Source of the DNA: Alphaproteobacteria bacterium
Lineage (GTDB): Bacteria; Pseudomonadota; Alphaproteobacteria; UBA828
Assembly (NCBI GenBank): GCA_022826665.1
Contig: JAJDUK010000076.1
Location: 1 to 64,000 of the forward strand
Direction of reading: 5' to 3'
DNA: 64,000 nucleotides
This document shows positions 39,209 to 51,742 of the stretch, one piece after another. Below the pieces are notes generated by a model. The model made no database searches, had not been told where the DNA came from, and saw nothing but the letters and a program-made list of their open reading frames with translations. How positions within the stretch are numbered: the stretch's first letter is position 1; the number at the start of each line of letters is the position of its first letter. The translations under genes and the position numbers were made by a program.

Positions 39209-40387
39209 ATGCGAAATGTCGACGACGATCTCCCGGTTATCACGCTGAGCGCGGGGCCAGTCGACGCGTATCCGGTCGTCCTGCGGGCGCTCTCGCGGCC
39301 CGTCACCTACGATTTCGATCCCTCATTCCAGAATTTCTATGAATCGACCGTCCTGAAGACCGCCGAGTCGCTGCGCACCGCGTTGCCGCCGGTGATCCTG
39401 ATGGGGGAGCCGGTGCTCGGGCTCGAAGCCGCCGCTGCCGCCCTGATCGGCGCCGACGACGTGGTGCTGAACCTCGCCTCCGGCGAGTACGGCAAGGGCT
39501 TCGGCTTCTGGGCGGCGCGCCATTGCCGGGAGCTGGTCGAGATCGTGGCACCCTACGACGACGCCATCGATCCCGACGCGGTCAGCGACATGCTGAAGGC
39601 CCGGCCCGATATTCGAATCCTCTCCGTCTGCCATCACGACACGCCGTCGGGCACGGTCAATCCGGTGCGCGAGATCGGCGAGATTTGCCGCGACCATGAT
39701 GTGCTCACCATCGTGGACGCGGTCTCCTCCTTCGGCGGAATGGACGTTCACCCCGAGGACATTCACGCCGACATTTTCGTGACCGGCCCCAACAAGTGCC
39801 TGGGCGGCAGCACGGGGCTCTCCATCGTCCACGTCAGCGAGCGCGCCTGGGCGAAGATCGACGCCAACCCCGCCGCGCCGACCGACTCCGTGCTGAGCCT
39901 CAAGGACTGGCGGGATGCCTGGCGCGCGGACGTCCTGTTTCCCTACACGCCCTCCGTCTCCGAGGTCCACGCGCTGGACGCCGCGGTGCAGAACTACCTC
40001 GACGAGGGACCGGAGGCGGTGTGGGCGCGGCACGCGCTGACGGCGCGCGCCTGCCGCGCGGGCGTGCGCGCCATGGGTCTCGAGCTCTGGCCCGCACGCG
40101 AGTCGATCTGCGCCGACACCGCGACCACGGTGCGGGTGCCGGCGGGGCTGGAGGACGCGGCCATCCGGCAAGAGGCGCGCCGGCTCTACGGCGTGGTCTT
40201 CTCCGCCGGCCGCGGCTCGCTGCTGGGCAAGCTGGTGCGGATCGGCCACATGGGGCCGGTGGCGCGGCCGATCTTCGCGACCGTGGCCGTGACTGCGCTC
40301 GGCGGCGCCGTCGCGTCACTGGGCGGCAAGGCCGACGTGGGGGCGGGAGTCGAGGCGGCGCTCGCGGTGATCGACGGCGCGGACTAA
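39209..40387 (+). CDS. ppaT: pyridoxamine-pyruvate aminotransferase
   Basis: 392 residues. It closely resembles Mesorhizobium loti PpaT, which converts pyridoxamine and pyruvate to pyridoxal and alanine in vitamin B6 degradation, matching across its length ('ITLSAGPVDAYP', 'GEPVLGLEAAAAALIGADDVVLNLASGEYGKGFG', 'SVCHHDTPSGTVNP'). The cofactor/substrate lysine is Lys196 in 'TGPNKCLGG', and 'TPSVSEVHALD' and 'GRGSLLGKLVRIGHMG' are shared. Fold type I, class V. No other B6-degradation gene is recognisable nearby. Convergent with the next gene (4-nt overlap of stops). Confidence 0.85.
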   Translation: MRNVDDDLPVITLSAGPVDAYPVVLRALSRPVTYDFDPSFQNFYESTVLKTAESLRTALPPVILMGEPVLGLEAAAAALIGADDVVLNLASGEYGKGFGFWAARHCRELVEIVAPYDDAIDPDAVSDMLKARPDIRILSVCHHDTPSGTVNPVREIGEICRDHDVLTIVDAVSSFGGMDVHPEDIHADIFVTGPNKCLGGSTGLSIVHVSERAWAKIDANPAAPTDSVLSLKDWRDAWRADVLFPYTPSVSEVHALDAAVQNYLDEGPEAVWARHALTARACRAGVRAMGLELWPARESICADTATTVRVPAGLEDAAIRQEARRLYGVVFSAGRGSLLGKLVRIGHMGPVARPIFATVAVTALGGAVASLGGKADVGAGVEAALAVIDGAD

Positions 40388-41385: not shown

Positions 41386-42708
41386 TTACCAATTCATGTA
41401 GGCCTGCACGGCCTCGTCCGGGACCAGCCCGGCGGCAACATCGCCGAGCGCCTTGTCGATGATGGCGAGGCCCTCCTCGCACTCCTCATCGCTCAGGGTG
41501 AGCGGCGGCGTGATCTCCAGCACGTTCGCCTCAAGGCCCACGTAGATGAAGCTCGCGCCGAGCTCGTAGGCGCGGACGATCACCTTGGCCGTCGTGGTGG
41601 CCGGGACAGGCGTCCGGCTCTCCCGGTCATCCACCAGGTCGACTCCGATGGCGAGACCGCGCCCGCGCACGTCGCCGATCATCTCGTGCCGCTCGGCGAG
41701 CTTCCTCAGACCGTCCGCCAGCGCCGTACCCACGCGCTCGGCACGACTCGGGAGATCCTCTTCAAGCACGGTGCGGAGCACCGCGAGGCCTGCGGCGGTG
41801 CAGACCGGATTGCCGCCCGTGGTCTGGATCGCGAAGGCCGGGCGGTGGTCCATGATCGAAGCGGGACCGATCAGCGCGGACAGCGGCAGGCCGCCGCCAA
41901 GACCCTTGCCGAGGACGACCATGTCGGGCTCCAGCCCCTCGTGGCTGAAGGCGTGGAGCGCGCCCGAGCGGCCCAGGCCGACCTTGACCTCGTCGAGGAC
42001 GGTGAGAATGCCGTGGCGCCGGCAGCGCTCCTCCAGGGCCTTGAGGAAGCCCGCGGGCGGCACGATCAGGCCGCCGTCCGACATGATGGGCTCGATGAAG
42101 ACGGCCGCCACCTGTTCAGGGGGGCACGTCGTCTCGAACTGGTAATCCAGCATGTTGAGCACGTCGTCGGCGGAAAAACGCGGCCGGTAGGGGTCGGGGT
42201 AGGGCAGCAGCACGAGGCCCGGCCGGGGCAGCGTATGGGTCATGGCCGTGTGGCCCGAGATGCTCATCGAGCCCGCCACGCCGCCGTGATAGGAACCGAT
42301 GAAGGAGATGAAGCGGTGGCGGCCGGTCGCCGCCTCAAGCACACGGGTCGCCGCGTCGTTGGCGTCGGAGCCGGAGTGGCCGTACCAGACGCGCCGCTCG
42401 GCATCGCCCGGCATCGTTTCAAGCAGTGCCTCGGCGAGGGCTGCGGCCGACTCGTTCGGATACATCAGCAGGCTCGCGCCCGCCATGTCGGCCATCGCCT
42501 CAGTCACGGCCTCGATCACGGCGGGATGGCCGTAGCCGAGGCTCGCCGCCGTCGCCGAGGCGGAGAGGTCGAGGATGGCGCGGCCGTCGTCGGCCGTGAG
42601 GTAGGAGCCGTGCCCGCCGCGCGCCGCCAGCGGGTTGAAGCGGAGCTTCTGGATGCCGGCGATCGCGGTTTCGTCACGCTCGCCGAGCGTCAGGTTCGAG
42701 GTCGCCAT
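41386..42708 (-). CDS. class III PLP-dependent aminotransferase
   Basis: 440 residues from ATG 42708 (GGAGG 7 nt before), the preceding TTG and GTG codons being too close to that site. Fold type I aminotransferase of the omega-amino-acid/4-aminobutyrate group: 'YLTADDGRAILDLSASATAASLGYGHP', 'WYGHSGSDANDAATRVLE', 'GSYHGGVAGSMSISGH', 'TVLDEVKVGLGRSG' and the PLP lysine in 'VVLGKGLGGGLPLSALIG'. It transfers an amino group from an omega-amine or amino acid to pyruvate or 2-oxoglutarate. Specific substrate not inferable. Confidence 0.9.
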   Translation of the reverse strand: MATSNLTLGERDETAIAGIQKLRFNPLAARGGHGSYLTADDGRAILDLSASATAASLGYGHPAVIEAVTEAMADMAGASLLMYPNESAAALAEALLETMPGDAERRVWYGHSGSDANDAATRVLEAATGRHRFISFIGSYHGGVAGSMSISGHTAMTHTLPRPGLVLLPYPDPYRPRFSADDVLNMLDYQFETTCPPEQVAAVFIEPIMSDGGLIVPPAGFLKALEERCRRHGILTVLDEVKVGLGRSGALHAFSHEGLEPDMVVLGKGLGGGLPLSALIGPASIMDHRPAFAIQTTGGNPVCTAAGLAVLRTVLEEDLPSRAERVGTALADGLRKLAERHEMIGDVRGRGLAIGVDLVDDRESRTPVPATTTAKVIVRAYELGASFIYVGLEANVLEITPPLTLSDEECEEGLAIIDKALGDVAAGLVPDEAVQAYMNW

Positions 42709-42774
42709 CACCAAGCCTCCATCGTTCCGCCCCCGCGTGGCCCGTGCCCCCGATTGCCGGCGGCGGACGCGGGC

Positions 42775-43500
42775 TCACGCCATGTGGGGCGCGAGCGCCT
42801 CGCGCAGCACCGGTGCCACCGCGTCGATCCCCGGCGTGTCGGAATGGATGCACACCGTCTCCGCCCGGATGGGCACGTCGACGCCTTCGACCGACGTGAC
42901 CATGCCCTCTTCGATGGCGCGGAGCGTGCGCCTGGCGGTCGCGGCCGGCTCGTAGGGCTCGTGCTCGCGCGTGATGATGAGGTTGCAGTCGCGGTCGTAT
43001 TCCAGATCGGCGTAGAACTCGGGCCACCAGGGCAGGCCGCGCCGGGAATAGACGGTGTCGTGCATGGTGCCGCCCTGGCCGATCAGCGGCACGCCGAAGA
43101 TTTCGGCCGCATCGGCTGCGGCCTCGGCGCAATGCTCGTACTTGGACGTCATGCCGAAGAGCGCGCCGTGGGGCTTGATGTGGTTGAGGGCGGAGCCGGC
43201 CGCCCTGAGGAAGCCGCTGAGCGCGCCCACCTGGTAAATCAGCAGATCGCGCAGCTCCTCGCGCTCCATCTGCATCTCCCGCCGGCCGAAGCCTTGCCGG
43301 TCGGGGAGCGACGGGTGCGCGCCCACCTTGACCCCGTGTTCGAGGGCAAGACGCACGGTCGCGTGCATCACCGACGGGTCCGAGGCATGAAAGCCGCAGG
43401 CGACATTGGCGATGCTGATGAACGGCATGATCCGCTCGTCGTTGCCGAAGGTGTAGAGGCCATACCCCTCGCCGATGTCGCAGTTGATGGTGACCGCCAT
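42775..43500 (-). CDS. LamB/YcsF family protein (PxpA paralogue, solitary)
   Basis: 241 residues from ATG 43500 (GGGAG, 6-nt spacing). The LamB fold is clear: 'TINCDIGEGYGLYTFGNDE', 'ANVACGFHASDPSVM', 'GAHPSLPDRQGFGRREMQM' and 'IKPHGALFGM'. It resembles the PxpA at 26.6 kb but is diverged and has no pxpB or pxpC beside it; the nearest genes are an aminotransferase downstream and the divergent GcvPA-like operon. Could act on a different lactam or oxo-acid, or borrow PxpBC from the other operon. Confidence 0.85.
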   Translation of the reverse strand: MAVTINCDIGEGYGLYTFGNDERIMPFISIANVACGFHASDPSVMHATVRLALEHGVKVGAHPSLPDRQGFGRREMQMEREELRDLLIYQVGALSGFLRAAGSALNHIKPHGALFGMTSKYEHCAEAAADAAEIFGVPLIGQGGTMHDTVYSRRGLPWWPEFYADLEYDRDCNLIITREHEPYEPAATARRTLRAIEEGMVTSVEGVDVPIRAETVCIHSDTPGIDAVAPVLREALAPHMA

Positions 43501-43646
43501 GGCGTACTCCCACTTCGCTGTGGCGGGGAACACTGCACGGGCGCGAGCGGGCAGTCAAAGCGGATCGGCGATTCGGCCGGGCGCCGTTGGTGCGCCCTAT
43601 GTGGCGGGATAGACTGGCCGCGACCGGAGGGACAGGGAGGCCGACC

Positions 43647-45041
43647 ATGGGCGACGGGTTCGTTCATCCTTATGTGCCGAATGCGGCGCCGGAGCCGCGG
43701 CGGAAGCTGCTTGATGCCATCGGCGTCGGCGACGTGACGGAGCTCTACGCAGCGATTCCGGAGGCGCTCAGGGTCAAGGGGCTGCTGGACCTGCCGCCGG
43801 CGCTGCCCGGCGAGCAGGACGTGCGGCGGCATCTGGAGGAGATCGTCGCCCGCAACCAGCCCTGTTCCGGGACCTGGCTCAACTTTTGCGGCGCCGGCTG
43901 CGCCCAGCACTATGTGCCGGCGATCGTGGACGAGATCGTCCATCGCGGCGAGTTCCTCACGGCCTACGGCGGCGGCACCTACTCGGACCACGGCAAGAAC
44001 CAGGCGCTCTTCGAGTTTCAGAGCCTGATCGGCGAGCTGGTGGGCATGGAGGTGGTCTCGACCCCGGTCTACGACGCGGGCGCCGCGACCGGCAGCGCCG
44101 TGACCATGGCCTGCCGCATCACCGGCAGGGGCGGCGTGCTGGTGCCGGAGACCATGAGCGCCGACCGGCGCTCGCAGCTCATCGGCTTCGCCAAGCCCTT
44201 TGCATCCGTCGAGACCGTCGACCGCGACCCCGCGACCGGGCTGATCGACCTCGCCGACCTCCGCGCCAAGGTCTCGGCCGAGACGGCGGCCGTGGTGATC
44301 GAGAGCCCCGGCTACCTCGGCCTGATCGAGACCCAGGCCCAGACCATCGCCGATATCGCTCACGAGGCCGGCGCCATGCTGATCGCTGGCGTCGACCCCA
44401 TCTCTCTCGGCGTGCTCGCGACGCCTGCCGATTACGGCGCGGACCTTGCGATCGGCGATCTGCAGCCGCTCGGCATCCACATGTATGCGGGCGGCGGCAA
44501 CGGGGGTTTCATCGCGAGCCGGGACGAATCCCGCTTCGTCGCCGAATACCCGTCGATCATGTTCAGCATCGCGCCGGCGGTAGAGGGGGAAGGCTTCGGC
44601 TTCGCCTGGTCCACCATGGAGCGCACCTCCTACGACACCCGCCACGACGCCACCGACTACGCCGGCACGACCCAGTGGGTCTGGGGCATCGGGGTCGCGG
44701 TCTATCTCTCGCTGATGGGGCCGGAGGGGATGGCCGAGCTCGGCCGCGGCATCATGCAGCGCGCCTGCTACGCGGCGGAGCGGATCGCGGCGCTCCCCGG
44801 CGTCGCGGTGCCCCACCTGGGGCAGCCGTTCTTCAAGGAGTTCGTGGTCGATTTCTCCGGCACGGGTAAGACCGTCGCGGCCGTCAACGCCGCGCTGCTC
44901 GAGGCCGAGATTCACGGCGGCAAGGACCTGAGCGGCGAGTTCCCGGTACTCGGGCAGTCCGCTCTCTATTGCGTGACCGAGCTGCACGGAGCGGCCGAGA
45001 TCAAACGACTGGTCTCCGCGCTCGGGGAGGCAGTCCGATGA
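43647..45041 (+). CDS. glycine dehydrogenase (decarboxylating) subunit 1-like (GcvPA-like)
   Basis: 464 residues from ATG 43647 with a GGAGG site. It has the GcvPA layout: 'LLDAIGVGDVTELYAAIPE', 'FCGAGCAQHYVPAIVDEIV', 'YGGGTYSDHGKNQALFEFQSLIGELVGMEV' and 'GVDPISLGVLATPADYGADLAIGD'. Several positions highly conserved in true GcvPA differ (canonical 'AYTPYQPEIS' is replaced by 'AYGGGTYSDH', and 'ASMYDG' by 'TPVYDAG'). No gcvT or gcvH is near. I infer a PLP heterodimer with the next gene, acting on glycine or another amino compound. Confidence 0.75.
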   Translation: MGDGFVHPYVPNAAPEPRRKLLDAIGVGDVTELYAAIPEALRVKGLLDLPPALPGEQDVRRHLEEIVARNQPCSGTWLNFCGAGCAQHYVPAIVDEIVHRGEFLTAYGGGTYSDHGKNQALFEFQSLIGELVGMEVVSTPVYDAGAATGSAVTMACRITGRGGVLVPETMSADRRSQLIGFAKPFASVETVDRDPATGLIDLADLRAKVSAETAAVVIESPGYLGLIETQAQTIADIAHEAGAMLIAGVDPISLGVLATPADYGADLAIGDLQPLGIHMYAGGGNGGFIASRDESRFVAEYPSIMFSIAPAVEGEGFGFAWSTMERTSYDTRHDATDYAGTTQWVWGIGVAVYLSLMGPEGMAELGRGIMQRACYAAERIAALPGVAVPHLGQPFFKEFVVDFSGTGKTVAAVNAALLEAEIHGGKDLSGEFPVLGQSALYCVTELHGAAEIKRLVSALGEAVR

Positions 45042-46636
45042 CCGACCGCATCGGAGGCGGCTTCCACGCCGCGCACTGGGACGAGCCCCTGATCGACGAA
45101 ATCCCCGGCGACGGCGGGCGCGGCCTGCTACCGCCCAAGGTGGACGACGCCATCGCCGATGCGGTCGGCGACGTTCCCGCCGCGCTGCCCGAAGGGGTGC
45201 GCCGCGCCGTGCCGCCGGCGCTGCCCTCGCTGCCGCAGCACCGGGTGCTCCGACACTTCCTGCGGCTCTCGCAGATGGCCATGGGCTTCGACGTGACCGT
45301 CGACATGATGGGCACCTGCACCATGAAATACAGCCCCAAGGTGCACGAGTACGTCGCGCGCCTGCCCGGCTTTGCCGACGTCCACCCCCTGCAGGACCCG
45401 GAGACGCTGCAGGGCACGCTGGAGATTCTCTACCGCTTCAACCGCGTGATGTGCGAGATCGCGGGCATGGATGCCTTCACCTTCCAGCCGGCGAGCGGGG
45501 CGCAGGGCATCTACACCAACGCCTGCCTGATCCGCGCCTATCACGCCGCGCGCGGCGACGGCGGCAAGCGGGACGAGATCATCACCACCGCCTTCTCGCA
45601 TCCGGCCGATGCGGCGACGCCGGCGGTGGCGGGCTTCAAGGTCATCACGCTCATGCCGGGCGAGATGGGCTTCGCCGAGGTCGACGCGCTCAAGGCCGCG
45701 GTCTCGGAGCGGACCGCCGGGCTGATGCTGACCAACCCCGAGGATACGGGGCAGTACAACCCGCACATCCGCGCGTTCGTGGACATCGTGCACGAGGCCG
45801 GCGGACTCTGCGCCTACGACCAGGCCAACGGCAATCCGCTGCTGGGGGTGGTGCGCGCGGGCGATACCGGCTTCGACATGTGCCAGTTCAACCTGCACAA
45901 GACCTTCTCCGCGCCCCACGGTGCGCTCGGGCTTGGCTGCGCTGCGGTGGGCGTCAAGGCGCACCTGGAGCGCTTCCTGCCGCGCCCCCTCGTCACCTAC
46001 GACGGCGAGCGCTACGGCCTGGATTACGAGCAGGGGGAGGGGATCGAGAAGATCCGCGCCTTCATCGGCAACGTGCACGCGGTGCTCAAGGCCTATGCCT
46101 GGGTCCGCAGCCTGGGCGCCGAGGGCCTGCGCGCGGTCGCCGAGACGGCGGTGCTCAACAACAACTACATGCTGCACCACATCAGGCAGATCGAGGGCAC
46201 GACCATTCCCTGGCCCAAGAACACGTACCCCAAGCTGGAACAGGTCCGCTACAGCTGGGAGCCGCTCTACGAGGAGACCGGCGTCGCCAGCCACGACGTG
46301 CTGAACCGCATGGTCGATTTCGGCGTGCAGCACTACATGGAGAGCCACGTGCCGATGCTGGTGCCGCAGCCCTTCACCCTGGAGCCGGGCGAATCGCTGA
46401 CCATCGCGGAGATGGACCACGTGCTGGGCGCGCTGCGGCGGATCGCAGAGGAGGCCCGCAACGCGCCGGAGCAGGTGACGGCGGCCCCGCACAGCGCCGC
46501 CATCCGGCCCATCGACGGCGACGTGCCGGAGGACCCGGACTGCTGGGCCTTCACCTCGCGCGCCTACCGGCGCAAGCGCGGCAACTGGGCCAACGTCAAG
46601 CGCGGCCTGGGCGGGCACGGCGGCGGCTACAGCTGA
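45038..46636 (+). CDS. glycine dehydrogenase (decarboxylating) subunit 2-like (GcvPB-like)
   Basis: 532 residues, ATG overlapping the stop of the previous gene (ATGA). The GcvPB fold and PLP lysine are present ('CQFNLHKTFSAPHG'), with 'MGTCTMKYSPKVHEYVARLPGFADVHPLQ' close to the canonical 'GSCTMKYNPK'. However, the canonical 'HGTNPAS' active-site stretch is replaced by 'FSHPADAATPAVAGF', and the protein is longer than most GcvPB. It therefore looks like a divergent relative with a changed substrate. Ends in a Gly-rich tail, 10 bp before the NAD-kinase-like gene. Confidence 0.75.
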   Translation: MTDRIGGGFHAAHWDEPLIDEIPGDGGRGLLPPKVDDAIADAVGDVPAALPEGVRRAVPPALPSLPQHRVLRHFLRLSQMAMGFDVTVDMMGTCTMKYSPKVHEYVARLPGFADVHPLQDPETLQGTLEILYRFNRVMCEIAGMDAFTFQPASGAQGIYTNACLIRAYHAARGDGGKRDEIITTAFSHPADAATPAVAGFKVITLMPGEMGFAEVDALKAAVSERTAGLMLTNPEDTGQYNPHIRAFVDIVHEAGGLCAYDQANGNPLLGVVRAGDTGFDMCQFNLHKTFSAPHGALGLGCAAVGVKAHLERFLPRPLVTYDGERYGLDYEQGEGIEKIRAFIGNVHAVLKAYAWVRSLGAEGLRAVAETAVLNNNYMLHHIRQIEGTTIPWPKNTYPKLEQVRYSWEPLYEETGVASHDVLNRMVDFGVQHYMESHVPMLVPQPFTLEPGESLTIAEMDHVLGALRRIAEEARNAPEQVTAAPHSAAIRPIDGDVPEDPDCWAFTSRAYRRKRGNWANVKRGLGGHGGGYS

Positions 46637-46646
46637 GTCTCGCCCA

Positions 46647-47768
46647 ATGGGCCGGCCTGCGCTCGGCCTGATCGTCAACCCGATCGCCGGCATGGGCGGC
46701 AGCGTCGGGCTCAAGGGCACCGACACGGCGGCGATTCTGAGCGAGGCGCGCGCCCGAGGCGCGGTGCCGCAGGCGGGCGCACGCGCAGCCGTGGTGCTGG
46801 AAGCACTTGCCGCTGCCCGGCCGGGGCTGGAGCTGTTCGCGGCCCCCGGCGAGATGGGCGAGGGGATCGCGCGCGAGGCCGACCTGCGTCCGTCGGTCGT
46901 CGGCGCCCCGGCCGAGGGAGAGACCAGCGCGGTGGACACGCACGCCGCGGCCGAGGCGATGGCGGCTGCCGGCGCCCGGCTCATCGTCTTCGCCGGCGGC
47001 GACGGCACCGCCCGCGACATGGCGGCCGCGCTTGGCGACCGGGTGCCGGTGATCGGCGTGCCCGCCGGGGTGAAGATGCACTCGGCGGTTTACGCCACCA
47101 GCCCCCGCGCCGCCGCCGATCTCGCGCTCCGGGCGCTCGCTCAGGACATCGAAGCGCGGCCCCGCGAGGTCATGGATATCGACGAAGAGGCGTTCCGCGC
47201 CGGCGCCATCTCCGCGAAGCTTTACGGTTACTTGCCAGTGCCTTACGCGCCAGACCTGACCCAAAGCGTCAAGGCCGGTGGGGTCAGCAGCGACCGCGCG
47301 GCGCTGAGCGGGATCGCCGCCGAGATTGCCGGCCGGATGGAGGCCGGGCGGCTCTACATTCTGGGGCCCGGCACCACCACGCGTGCGATCGCCGAGGCGC
47401 TCGGCCTGCCCAAGACCCTGCTCGGCGTCGACCTGGTGCGGGACGGAGCGGTGATTGCCGCCGATGCGACCGAGGCGGCTATCCTGCGCGCGCTGGACGA
47501 GAGCCCGCCCGGCGCCATCGTGGTGACGCCCATCGGCGGTCAGGGGCACTTTCTCGGGCGCGGCAACCAGCAGATCGGCGCGCGCGTGGTGCGGGCGGTG
47601 GGTCTCGACCGGTTGCTCGTGGCGGCGACGCCCGAAAAGCTCGCGTCCCTGCGCGACAGCACGCTGCACGTCGATACCGGCGACCCCGACCTGGACCGGG
47701 CGCTTTCCGGCTGGCGCCGCGTCATCACCGGCCGCGGCAACGAGACGGTGTGCCGGGTCGCGGCATGA
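46647..47768 (+). CDS. ATP-NAD kinase / AcoX-like protein
   Basis: 373 residues of the COG3199-type NAD-kinase superfamily: 'GLIVNPIAGMGGSVGLKGTDT' at the start and the superfamily 'FAGGDGTARD' nucleotide motif near residue 117, with 'GVPAGVKMHSAVYATSP' following. Members sit in acoin/acetoin clusters or beside dehydrogenases and may phosphorylate NAD or a small substrate. Genes on both sides are metabolic, so a kinase of a pathway intermediate is possible. Third gene of the operon. Confidence 0.82.
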   Translation: MGRPALGLIVNPIAGMGGSVGLKGTDTAAILSEARARGAVPQAGARAAVVLEALAAARPGLELFAAPGEMGEGIAREADLRPSVVGAPAEGETSAVDTHAAAEAMAAAGARLIVFAGGDGTARDMAAALGDRVPVIGVPAGVKMHSAVYATSPRAAADLALRALAQDIEARPREVMDIDEEAFRAGAISAKLYGYLPVPYAPDLTQSVKAGGVSSDRAALSGIAAEIAGRMEAGRLYILGPGTTTRAIAEALGLPKTLLGVDLVRDGAVIAADATEAAILRALDESPPGAIVVTPIGGQGHFLGRGNQQIGARVVRAVGLDRLLVAATPEKLASLRDSTLHVDTGDPDLDRALSGWRRVITGRGNETVCRVAA

Positions 47769-47844: not shown

Positions 47845-48855
47845 ATGAAAACGCTATCTTGGGGCGTGCTCGGCGCTTCGTTCTTCGCCATCGAGCACAT
47901 GATCCCGGCGTTGCTTGAGGCCAAGGGCCTCCGCGTCCACGGTATCGCGAGCCGCGAGCTGGCCAAGGCCGAGGTGGTGGCCGAGCGATTCGGCCTGTCG
48001 CAGGCCTATGGCGATTACGAGTCCATGTTGGCCGATCCCGCCATCGACGTGGTCTTCAACCCGCTGCCCAATCACCTCCACGTGCCCTGGTCGGCGAAGG
48101 CGGCGCACGCCGGCAAGCACGTGCTCTGCGAGAAGCCCATCGCGCTCAGCGCGGACGAGGCGGCGCAGCTCATCGCCGTCCGCGACGAGACCGGCGTGCA
48201 GATTCAGGAGGCGTATGTCGTCACCCATCACCCGCAATGGAAGCGGGTGCGGGAGCTGGTGCGCGCGGGCCGCATCGGACCCGTGCGGGCGATTCAGGGC
48301 TGGGTCAGCTACTGGCTGGACGACCCCGAGAACATCCGCAACAAGCGGGAGATGGGGGGTGGCGGACTGCTCGACATCGGCGTCTATCCGCTGTTGACCG
48401 CGCGCTACGTGTTCGAGGCCGATCCGATCCGCGCCTTCGCCGCCATCGAGCGGCACCCGGAATGGGGGACGGACGTGCTGGCCAGCGCGACGCTGGAGTT
48501 TCCGAGCGGCATCCTGAGCTTCACCTGCGGCACGCTGTCGGCGGTCCATCAGCACATGGCGATCCACGGCACCGAGGGGCGGATCGAGCTGCCCGACCCC
48601 TTCGCCCAATCGCCGACCCGCGAGGCGCGCCTCTCGATCCTGGGTCCGCGCCAGATCTGGGAGCCGCTCAACGAGGAGGTCGAGACCCTGGAACGGGTCA
48701 ACCAGTACGTGCCGCAGGCCGAGGCGTTCTGCGCGGCGGTGCGGGGCGAGGCGCCGCCGGCGTTCCCGCTGGAGGAGTCGGTCAAGATGATGCGGGCACT
48801 GGATGCACTGGCGCGCTCGGGCGAGAGCGGCCGGTGGGAGGAGGTCGGTGTCTGA
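47845..48855 (+). CDS. Gfo/Idh/MocA family oxidoreductase
   Basis: 336 residues, NAD(P)-dependent sugar/polyol dehydrogenase. N-terminal Rossmann fold with 'GVLGASFFAIEHMIPALL' (the usual G-x-G-x-x-A/G loop), 'DVVFNPLPNHLH' and the family 'HVLCEKPIALSADEAAQLIA' with the catalytic EKP lysine. The C-terminal half has 'GGGLLDIGVYPL' and 'LSFTCGTLSAVHQHMAIHGTEGRIEL'. D-apiose dehydrogenase and other sugar dehydrogenases belong here. It precedes an ApnL-like lactonase, which suggests oxidation of a sugar to a lactone. Confidence 0.88.
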   Translation: MKTLSWGVLGASFFAIEHMIPALLEAKGLRVHGIASRELAKAEVVAERFGLSQAYGDYESMLADPAIDVVFNPLPNHLHVPWSAKAAHAGKHVLCEKPIALSADEAAQLIAVRDETGVQIQEAYVVTHHPQWKRVRELVRAGRIGPVRAIQGWVSYWLDDPENIRNKREMGGGGLLDIGVYPLLTARYVFEADPIRAFAAIERHPEWGTDVLASATLEFPSGILSFTCGTLSAVHQHMAIHGTEGRIELPDPFAQSPTREARLSILGPRQIWEPLNEEVETLERVNQYVPQAEAFCAAVRGEAPPAFPLEESVKMMRALDALARSGESGRWEEVGV

Positions 48856-48923: not shown

Positions 48924-50903
48924 ATGACGACGGCACCGAGCGAGGCGCTCACGCTCTACGGCACCGAGCAGGAAGCGCCGGAAGCGCGGGCCATCACGGC
49001 CGGCGCGCTCACGGCCACGCTCGAGGCCGGCAAGCTGCGCTGGATCCGCTACGGCGGTGTGGAGGCGCTGCGCGGCCTCGCCTTCGTCGTGCGCGGCGGC
49101 GGCTGGGAGACCTACGCGCCTCAGATCGCCAACCTTGAGATCGAGGAAGAGGGAGGCGGCTTTCGCGTGGGCTACGACGGGCGCATCGAGTCCGGCGACG
49201 GCGTGCTCACCTACCGGGCCGAGATCGTGGCGGAGAACGAGCGGAGCCTGGTCTTCACGGTCGAGTTCACGCCCGAAACCGAGTTCAGGACCAGCCGCAC
49301 GGGCTTCGTCGTGCTGCACCCGGTCGAGGGCGTGGCGGGCGAGACCTGCACCATCACCCACAGCGACGGCGCGGTGGAGGAGACCGCCTTCCCCGGACTG
49401 ATCAGCCCGTTTCAGCCTTTCTACGACATTGCCGCCATGCGCCACCGGGTCTCGCCGGGGGTCTGGCTCACCTGCCGCTTCGAAGGCGCCGACCCGTGGG
49501 AGACCGAGGATCAGCGCAATTGGACCGATGCCTCCTACAAGACCTACTACCGCCCGCTTGCGCTGCCCTTCCCCTACCCGCTGGCGGCCGGCGAGCGGCT
49601 GCGGCAGGTCGCGACACTCAGCATCGAGGGGGGCTCTGCAGCCGTGGCCGCAGGTCCGGGCGGTGACGGGGCGGTCGAGATCGCCCTCGGCGGCGCGACC
49701 GGAACGCAGATGCCGGAGATCGGGCTCGGCGTTGCCAACCTGGAGCGCGATCATCTCGACCACGGGCTCGACCTGATCAAGGCGCTCGGGCCGGGGCACA
49801 TCGTCTGTGAATGTGACCCTCGTGACCCTCACGCGGCAGACGCGCTGGCCGCCGGCCGGGGTCTGGCCGAGGCTCTCGATGCCGAGGTCGTGCTGGAGAT
49901 TACGGTGCCTTGTGAGCGGCCGGTGGCCGACGAGCTGGCACAGGCTGCCGAGATCGCGGGCCGTGCCGGGCTCAAGCCCGACGCCATCGTGCCGGAGCAG
50001 GCGCGGCTCCTGAAGTTCACCTTGGAGAAGATCGCGGCCCTCGGCATCCCCGACTTCGACGAGGTCTACGGCGCGGCGCGCGCGGCCTTCCCCGGCGTGC
50101 GCCTGGGCGGCGGGGTCTTCACCAACTTCACCGAGCTCAACCGCAACTGCGCGACGCCCGACCTGTTCGACTTCCTGACCCATGCCACCTCTGCCGTGGT
50201 GCACGAGCCGGACGACCTCTCGGTAATCGAGACGCTGCAGACGCTGCCGGATATCGTCGCCTCGGCCAAGGCGCTCGCCGGAGGCAAGCCCTACCGCATC
50301 GCGCCGAGCGCCATCGGCATGCGCTTCAACCCCTACGGGCCGGACGTCCACCAGAACGGCGACAACGGGCGCTACTCCTTCAACCGCCAGGACCCGCGCC
50401 ATCGCGCGCTGCTCGGCGCGGCCTTCACGCTCGGCTATGCGGCGCGGGTGGCGCCGCTTGGCCTGGAGGCGCTGGCGGTCGGCCAGCCTTCCGGCGCGCT
50501 CGGCATGGTCTATCGCAGGACCGAGCACCCGCAGCCCTGGTTCGACGATCTCGACGGGCCGGCGGTGATGCCTCTCTATCACATCGTGGCGGCGCTCGCG
50601 GCGGCGAAGGGGGCGGCGGTCCGCGCCGTGACCAGCGGCGATCCCACGCAAGTGCTGGGGCTCGCCTACGAGAACGGGGGCGGCACCTTGCTCTGGCTCG
50701 CCAACCTCACGCCGGCGCCCCGGACCGTGACGGTCTCGGGCCTCTCGGGTGGCACGGCCACCATCGGTCGGCTGGATTCGAGCAACTTCGTGGACGCCGT
50801 GACCGATCCGGCGGGCTTCGCGGCGTCCCTCGGTCAGCCGGGCGACCCCGGCCGCGTCGAATTGGCGCCGTTTGCCGTCTCGCGCATCCAGATCGGCGCA
50901 TAG
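48924..50903 (+). CDS. ApnL-like (D-apionate lactonase family) protein
   Basis: 659 residues, no signal peptide. The layout fits the three-domain ApnL family: an N-terminal beta sandwich (about 1-225), a TIM-barrel-like middle (about 235-540) and a C-terminal beta domain (about 560-659). Readable conserved stretches are 'FQPFYDIAAMRHRVSPGVWLTC', 'EDQRNWTDASYKTYYRPLALPFPYP' and 'ALPIYHIVAALAAAKG'-like regions. Described ApnL hydrolyses apionolactone in D-apiose degradation; the upstream Gfo/Idh enzyme is consistent. Classification rests on memory of the family, so confidence is moderate. Confidence 0.6.
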   Translation: MTTAPSEALTLYGTEQEAPEARAITAGALTATLEAGKLRWIRYGGVEALRGLAFVVRGGGWETYAPQIANLEIEEEGGGFRVGYDGRIESGDGVLTYRAEIVAENERSLVFTVEFTPETEFRTSRTGFVVLHPVEGVAGETCTITHSDGAVEETAFPGLISPFQPFYDIAAMRHRVSPGVWLTCRFEGADPWETEDQRNWTDASYKTYYRPLALPFPYPLAAGERLRQVATLSIEGGSAAVAAGPGGDGAVEIALGGATGTQMPEIGLGVANLERDHLDHGLDLIKALGPGHIVCECDPRDPHAADALAAGRGLAEALDAEVVLEITVPCERPVADELAQAAEIAGRAGLKPDAIVPEQARLLKFTLEKIAALGIPDFDEVYGAARAAFPGVRLGGGVFTNFTELNRNCATPDLFDFLTHATSAVVHEPDDLSVIETLQTLPDIVASAKALAGGKPYRIAPSAIGMRFNPYGPDVHQNGDNGRYSFNRQDPRHRALLGAAFTLGYAARVAPLGLEALAVGQPSGALGMVYRRTEHPQPWFDDLDGPAVMPLYHIVAALAAAKGAAVRAVTSGDPTQVLGLAYENGGGTLLWLANLTPAPRTVTVSGLSGGTATIGRLDSSNFVDAVTDPAGFAASLGQPGDPGRVELAPFAVSRIQIGA

Positions 50904-50941: not shown

Positions 50942-51742
50942 ATGGCAGAACACGCCCTCAAGGAGATGTCCCGCCACGGCCGGCTCAAGGTCGGCACCTT
51001 CGTGGTCGAGTTCAGCACGCCGGGAATCGGCCAGATCCTGAAGGCCGCCGGCTGCGAGTACGTGCTGCTCGACATGGAGCATTCCGGCTTCGGCTTCGAC
51101 ACGCTGAAGCAGATGCTGCGCTACATGCAGGCGGGCGACATGCCGGCGATCGTGCGCGTGCCGTCGCGCGAATACCACCACGCGGCACGCGCCATGGACA
51201 TGGGGGCCGAGGGCATCATGCTGCCGATGGTGGGCTCGGCGAAGGTGGCGCGGGAGCTGCTGAGCTACGTCAAGTACGCGCCGGACGGCGAGCGTGGCGT
51301 CGCGCTGCAGATCGCCCACGATCGCTACGCGCCGGGGGACACGAAAAAGAAGCTGCGCGACGCCAACCGGCGCTGCACCTTCGTCGCCTTGATCGAGACC
51401 GCCGAGGGCATCGAGAACGTGGACGACATCGCGGCCATCGAAGATGTCGACGTGCTCTGGATCGGCCACTTCGACCTCTCGGTCTCCATGGGCATCGCGG
51501 GCCAGTTCGACCACTCGGATTTCATCGCGGCGGTGGCGCGCGTGGTGCAGGCGGCGAAGAGGAACAACAAGTCCCTGGGCCGGCTGGTGCCCAACGTCGA
51601 TGTCGGCGTGGCGCTGTTCAACGAAGGCTTCGACTTCATCTGCTATTCGGGCGATGTCTGGCTGTTGCAGCAGTCCATGCGCGAGGGCGCGGAGGGCCTG
51701 CGCGCCCAATGCAAGCGTGGCCGGCGGCGGCCGAAGAGATAA
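50942..51742 (+). CDS. HpcH/HpaI-type class II aldolase
   Basis: 266 residues. Metal-dependent aldolase of the HpcH/HpaI family, splitting 2-keto-3-deoxy or hydroxy-oxo acids to pyruvate and an aldehyde. Motifs: 'FVVEFSTPGIGQILKAAGCEYVLLDMEHSGFG', 'AIVRVP', 'GAEGIMLPMV' and the metal-binding Glu and Asp in 'LIETAEGIENV' and 'GHFDLSVSMG'. C-terminal tail is basic ('CKRGRRRPKR'). Follows the lactonase by 38 bp and the dehydrogenase by 16 bp, so it probably cleaves a product of that route. Confidence 0.9.
   Translation: MAEHALKEMSRHGRLKVGTFVVEFSTPGIGQILKAAGCEYVLLDMEHSGFGFDTLKQMLRYMQAGDMPAIVRVPSREYHHAARAMDMGAEGIMLPMVGSAKVARELLSYVKYAPDGERGVALQIAHDRYAPGDTKKKLRDANRRCTFVALIETAEGIENVDDIAAIEDVDVLWIGHFDLSVSMGIAGQFDHSDFIAAVARVVQAAKRNNKSLGRLVPNVDVGVALFNEGFDFICYSGDVWLLQQSMREGAEGLRAQCKRGRRRPKR

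Follow-up and report, generated by a model that had tools for sequence, protein, structure and literature searches.

What reaction is carried out by a gene pair that resembles the two halves of glycine decarboxylase when no other part of the glycine cleavage system (GCS) is encoded beside it? The question is raised by a stretch of 64,000 nucleotides (the window) on a contig (JAJDUK010000076.1, here C15) of an alphaproteobacterial genome (GCA_022826665.1; 4.6 Mb, 99.2% complete, 4.0% contamination). Two genes on its forward strand encode a GcvPA-like subunit of 464 amino acids, with a pyridoxal 5'-phosphate (PLP)-fold domain that lacks the lysine (43647..45041), and a PLP-binding GcvPB-like subunit of 532 amino acids with a C-terminal extension of about 40 residues (45038..46636). 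The start of the second gene overlaps the stop of the first by 4 bp (ATGA), and the pair is translationally coupled. An initial annotation had raised the possibility of a PLP heterodimer with a new reaction. Our analysis supports that idea: judged from sequence, the pair is very probably a distinct enzyme that is independent of the lipoyl H-protein, and given its paralogy, its phylogeny and the existence of host genomes without GcvH and GcvT, a new reaction is likely.

The search for a canonical gcv operon elsewhere in the genome had been set beforehand as the deciding test. A complete operon was found on another contig (C88), where gcvT, gcvH and a fused gcvP (1010 amino acids) lie together; the pair is therefore a paralogue, and a role as the housekeeping glycine decarboxylase is ruled out. 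The reported absence of gcvT and gcvH, and thus of a lipoyl carrier, near the pair held at the window locus. It is also the rule in the wider family, whose subunits are denoted GcvPA' and GcvPB' below. Gene context was tabulated for 89 family loci, with open reading frame calls weighted by conservation (GcvPB' is present in 86; four GC-rich loci lack a GcvPA' call). GcvT and GcvH are both near the pair in just one of the 89, L103, where a canonical operon adjoins, and a partial GcvT-like match lies near the pair at L130. At canonical two-subunit loci (n=26), GcvT and GcvH were each found within 1.5 kb in 21.

The genus Paenibacillus provides the clearest evidence for independence from the carrier. 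GcvH is present in 31 of 32 sampled genomes with the pair, the exception being a Paenibacillus that has the divergent pair only and neither GcvH nor GcvT. Among 51 Paenibacillus genomes, canonical GcvPA is encoded in 8 (460-476 bits) and intact divergent GcvPA in 7 (201-211 bits), with both in one; a further genome (G384) has a short fragment. GcvH and GcvT, the partners with which glycine decarboxylase works, are both encoded in every genome with canonical GcvPA (8/8) and in none of those that have the divergent pair only (0/6). The chance probability of such a split of 14 genomes is 1/3003, a figure to be read with the relatedness, and hence non-independence, of the genomes in mind. Missing sequence is an unlikely cause, because in one of the six the pair lies on a single 7.56 Mb contig of a 7.6 Mb genome. 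As genomes with the pair alone have neither H- nor T-protein, the pair apparently cannot depend on a lipoyl carrier. It is thus well supported by the gene content that the family is H-protein-independent and would not be a glycine decarboxylase of known kind.

Comparison of identities, which took in relatives, 289 genomes of the class and plasmids, divided the matches into two groups with no values in between: 45-100% within the family and 28-38% to canonical two-subunit P-proteins. A scan with the GcvPA' alignment yielded at least 536 relatives of any kind in GTDB species genomes. In the best segment, identity is about 49-95% for all of the best 80 of these, whose hosts include Bacillota, Chloroflexota with SAR202, Desulfobacterales, Acidobacteriota, Actinomycetota, Asgard archaea and Bathyarchaeota, among others; plasmid matches add Rhodococcus, Sphingomonas, Paracoccaceae and one haloarchaeon. 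The phylogeny against GcvP that the initial annotation had called for was inferred by a quick method for GcvPB alone, with long branches flagged on either side. It separates 99/99 family members from the canonical P-proteins, fused and two-subunit, by a branch of 1.69 changes per column (support 100). The pair thus falls outside all sampled glycine decarboxylases, including the characterised P-proteins, and its membership in a deep and distinct family of bacteria and archaea is well supported.

The motifs of the active site and of the carrier interface differ accordingly. In the window GcvPA', the loop LTAYTPYQPE[IV]SQG is replaced by LTAYGGGTYSDHG (43956..43994, forward strand), so that canonical YTPYQPE[IV]SQG reads YGG-GTYSDHG with one residue deleted. 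In GcvPB', HGTNPA has become HPADAA, the full motif HGTNPAS/T being replaced by HPADAAT (45599..45619, forward strand), which keeps the His and changes Gly to Pro. Both alterations had been noted initially; they were confirmed and are not due to chance. By motif mapping to human GLDC, the equivalent of Tyr164 is deleted in 101/101 family GcvPA' proteins and that of Pro163 is Gly in 100/101; Tyr161 and Tyr164 are active-site positions with disease mutations (PMC7259800). The equivalent of Arg373, an H-protein contact according to a docking prediction (PMC7259800), is replaced in 100/101. The pair therefore has neither the YTPYQPE loop nor the QHIRRxK motif of the H-interface predicted by docking. 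Further family changes in GcvPB' are CDGAN to YDQAN, NPNTCG to NPEDTG and CMHEAL to xxEQVR. Charged residues are new at E235, D236 and R404 of GcvPB' and D114 of GcvPA', and differences from canonical proteins are near-fixed at 33 positions in GcvPA' and 27 in GcvPB'. The invariant residues of GcvPB' are the His of the HGTNPA loop, the PLP Asp and the PLP Lys, the last being K288 in FNLHKTF (45899..45901, forward strand; NLHKTF, 100/100 family rows), as the annotation had proposed.

The pair nevertheless has the P-protein fold with its PLP lysine, and the glycine decarboxylase architecture ascribed to both proteins was borne out. GcvPA' matches Pfam GDC-P (164.6 bits), and GcvPB' matches GcvP2_C and Aminotran_5. 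Both exceed the cut-offs of the corresponding NCBIfam models (NF001696, 419.6 against 364 bits; NF003346, 505.4 against 441 bits). The closest solved chains by sequence are those of the Thermus P-protein (1wyt_A and 1wyt_B), and the top structural matches of the single-chain fold models are GcvPA chains (9a73_A, 1wyt_A) and GcvPB chains (9a73_B, 1wyt_B, 1wyu_B), respectively. The pair has the fold, cofactor and heterodimeric make-up of the P-protein. With the two-subunit glycine decarboxylase (Thermus 1wyt/1wyu/1wyv) the pair shares two genes, the fold, 28-38% identity, the PLP lysine and aspartate, and the histidine of the HGTNPA loop. It differs in needing no H- or T-partner, in its replaced and shortened YTPYQPE loop, in the loss of the predicted H-contact Arg, in new acidic and Arg residues in GcvPB', and in having its own clade and partner genes. 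The fused GcvP/GLDC (C88 of the same genome, E. coli 9uz6, human 6i33-6i35) belongs to the same superfamily and uses the same cofactor; unlike the pair, it is a single chain working with lipoyl H-protein, and the window genome keeps one separately. By these results the NCBIfam cut-offs also admit a different family, and the GcvPA'/GcvPB' family is not separated from GcvPA/GcvPB in current annotation. A literature search, with most subscription journals outside its coverage, found no description of a GcvPA'/GcvPB' unit.

The genes that recur beside the pair give clues to its role. The initial annotation was right about the pair and missed the gene directly downstream, a recurrent third member of the unit. 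It begins 10 bp after the GcvPB' gene and encodes an NAD-kinase-like protein of 373 amino acids (46647..47768, forward strand) with Pfam NAD_kinase and NAD_kinase_C domains; in a PDB search its matches to solved kinases were very weak. A gene of this kind occurs in 68/89 family loci, directly after GcvPB' in 53 and directly before GcvPA' in 6, and near 1/26 canonical two-subunit loci. A short-chain dehydrogenase/reductase (SDR) of one cluster occurs in 55/89 loci, most often directly before GcvPA' (28 loci at -1). One or both lie at most four genes away in 59 of the 63 well-flanked loci. The kinase-like gene was dropped as an essential partner, as it is absent genome-wide from the Paenibacillus and Bacillus genomes with the pair that were tested.

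Farther out, neighbours across the family include amino-acid permeases, ATP-binding cassette (ABC) importers for polar amino acids and sugars, M20 deacylases, a coenzyme A (CoA) transferase, AMP ligases and beta-galactosidase. LacZ and SDR genes directly precede the pair in 5/5 Paenibacillus loci examined, with a CUT1-type importer farther upstream, and a Lederbergia cluster (L109) combines a GH63/YgjK-like glycosidase, a beta-galactosidase, sugar importers, an SDR and the pair. Single clusters hold an acyl-CoA ligase, a CoA transferase, a primary-amine oxidase (Gemmobacter), an enzyme like 2-amino-3-ketobutyrate CoA ligase (KBL) or a sarcosine-reductase subunit, which would fit the release of an acid together with either an amine or glycine. 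The KBL-like gene adjoins the pair at L125; a KBL-like enzyme accompanies an epimerase-type dehydrogenase at one locus, and the sarcosine-reductase subunit is found at another. Taken together, the neighbours point to a likely role in breaking down an amino or hydroxy-amino compound, and we infer that the thread common to them is an amine beside a hydroxyl.

Because importers, deacylases and LacZ-SDR-GcvPA'-GcvPB' operons lie near the pair, a catabolic role is proposed. With moderate confidence, we regard the pair as a carrier-free alpha-beta PLP heterodimer of the P-protein superfamily, forming its own family and degrading an imported amino or hydroxy-amino compound. In the scheme we envisage, the SDR would act first, oxidizing a neighbouring hydroxyl to a ketone and so giving an amino ketone. 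The beta subunit would bind the substrate amine as a PLP aldimine at K288, the alpha subunit would close the active site, and the pair would then cleave the bond that joins the amine-bearing carbon to the carbonyl carbon. Such a deacylation would resemble the removal of CO2 from glycine. The products would be a small amine or amino acid and a carboxylic acid, and the kinase-like protein, missing in some lineages, would be an accessory. This specific chemistry, C-C cleavage of an SDR-made amino ketone, is put forward tentatively, as a possibility. In its narrowest form, which is unlikely to be correct in full, the carrier-free enzyme would cleave alpha-amino ketones that SDRs make from vicinal amino alcohols and, in some Gram-positives, would act on 5-hydroxylysine released from Glc-alpha1,2-Gal-Hyl, the disaccharide of collagen; the Lederbergia cluster and the Paenibacillus importer-LacZ-SDR-GcvPA'-GcvPB' arrangement suggested this substrate. 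Hydroxylysine is attractive as a candidate because the collagen disaccharide unit is Glc-alpha1,2-Gal-beta-hydroxylysine (PMC8626586, PMC11012932).

Several observations weigh against this proposal. Neighbours vary strongly among lineages, so several substrates are possible. In 22 of the 63 well-flanked loci, among them that of the window, the kinase-like gene occurs without a close SDR, and 4 have neither; the lack of a close SDR in the window is offset by 79 SDR matches in its genome. The proposed chemistry offers no evident part for the kinase-like protein, and the fold models are of single chains (mean predicted local distance difference test score 72-76), with the shared active site outside them.

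Other chemistries were weighed against amino-ketone cleavage. An H-protein-independent alpha-decarboxylase would turn a larger amino acid into an amine with no ketone involved, leaving the SDR to handle a later aldehyde or alcohol. It would retain the ancestral chemistry, glycine decarboxylation, could accommodate the larger amino acid with the charged residues of GcvPB' (E235, D236, R404) and GcvPA' (D114), and agrees with the primary-amine oxidase of the Gemmobacter cluster. We consider it somewhat doubtful, as the position of the SDR gene, most often adjoining the pair on its upstream side (28 loci at -1), suggests an earlier step and no recurrent amine exporter or antiporter was seen. A phospho-lyase route would account for a member of a kinase superfamily being encoded directly after GcvPB' in 53 loci. 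On this route an amino alcohol would be phosphorylated by the NAD-kinase-like protein, and the pair would catalyse the loss of phosphate and ammonia in the manner of ethanolamine-phosphate and phospho-hydroxylysine lyases. However, Bacillus and Paenibacillus genomes with the pair encode no such kinase anywhere, and the known phospho-lyases belong to another PLP subgroup, making this route decidedly improbable.

That the pair is a true second glycine decarboxylase borrowing an H-protein encoded elsewhere is very unlikely. GcvH does occur in 30/31 other sampled genomes with the pair, the NCBIfam scores exceed curated cut-offs and the L103 pair adjoins a full canonical GCS. However, the deep separate clade and the loss of active-site and predicted H-interface residues argue against it, and the six genomes with the pair but without GcvH and GcvT led us to reject a GCS acting in trans. 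Hardly credible is an inactive or decaying paralogue, for which the altered motifs are the sole support: the frames are intact, the PLP lysine, aspartate and histidine are invariant in about 100 sequences, and the operons are conserved over bacteria and archaea. Such conservation contradicts a pseudogene, and that reading was rejected.

For amino-ketone cleavage, the nearest precedent is KBL, a PLP enzyme that cleaves an amino ketone after a dehydrogenase; the likeness lies in the proposed chemistry only, as KBL is a CoA-dependent homodimer of another PLP subfamily. The hydroxylysine kinase and phospho-hydroxylysine lyase pathway, in which a vicinal amino alcohol is processed by a kinase plus a PLP enzyme, offers a lead only: its proteins are of different families, and some lineages with the pair lack the kinase-like gene.

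Independence from a lipoyl carrier, if it holds, would show how a carrier-tied decarboxylase can be converted into a stand-alone PLP enzyme. Glycine dehydrogenase labels are probably wrong in hundreds of bacterial and archaeal genomes, including those of Asgard archaea and SAR202. The same is probably true of metabolic reconstructions in which such genes stand for a glycine cleavage system, above all in genomes that lack GcvH. Cultured hosts among Paenibacillus and Bacillus species could be used to find the reaction.

The window holds further genes around the unit. Downstream on the forward strand, a Gfo/Idh/MocA oxidoreductase (47845..48855; Pfam) and a D-apionate-lactonase-like (ApnL-like) protein (48924..50903; NCBIfam, 548.6 bits against a cut-off of 750) adjoin the pair in close relatives too; a PDB search with the latter gave nothing useful. 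They are followed by an HpcH/HpaI-type aldolase (50942..51742; Pfam, NCBIfam), a probable operon member, and a hydroxyacid dehydrogenase gene identified by eye from the sequence. Upstream, on the reverse strand, lie a divergent gene of the PxpA/YcsF (5-oxoprolinase subunit A) family (42775..43533; Pfam, NCBIfam), a class III aminotransferase (41386..42714; Pfam), whose family is represented near the pair at about 10 loci of the gene-context table, and a luciferase-like oxidoreductase. A forward-strand gene (39209..40387) encodes a protein resembling pyridoxamine-pyruvate transaminase (NCBIfam, 607.9 bits, just over the cut-off of 600), normally an enzyme of vitamin B6 degradation.

A GCV_T search of the window genome gave 14 matches, most in frames of about 780-1100 codons and located on contigs C15, C17, C19, C31, C54, C73, C84, C85, C91 and C103, which suggests many dimethylglycine/sarcosine-dehydrogenase-like proteins. 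In a related genus (L102, L143, L144), nitrile hydratase-, amidase- and D-aminoacylase-like genes, assigned by eye, lie near the pair together with a polar-amino-acid-type ABC importer. Close relatives L057, L058 and L060 carry a sugar-type ABC importer of four genes that is oriented divergently to the pair and located between YcsF and GcvPA' in L058; the corresponding interval of the window (43533-43647) has no importer. A LacI-type regulator, recognized by eye, separates the kinase-like and Gfo/Idh genes in L057 and L142. The L057 contig is filed under a Chloroflexota metagenome-assembled genome of the bin series RHO3, which it shares with the window, and its GcvPA' is 95% identical to the alphaproteobacterial-type protein of the window; its placement probably reflects a binning error or a recent transfer.
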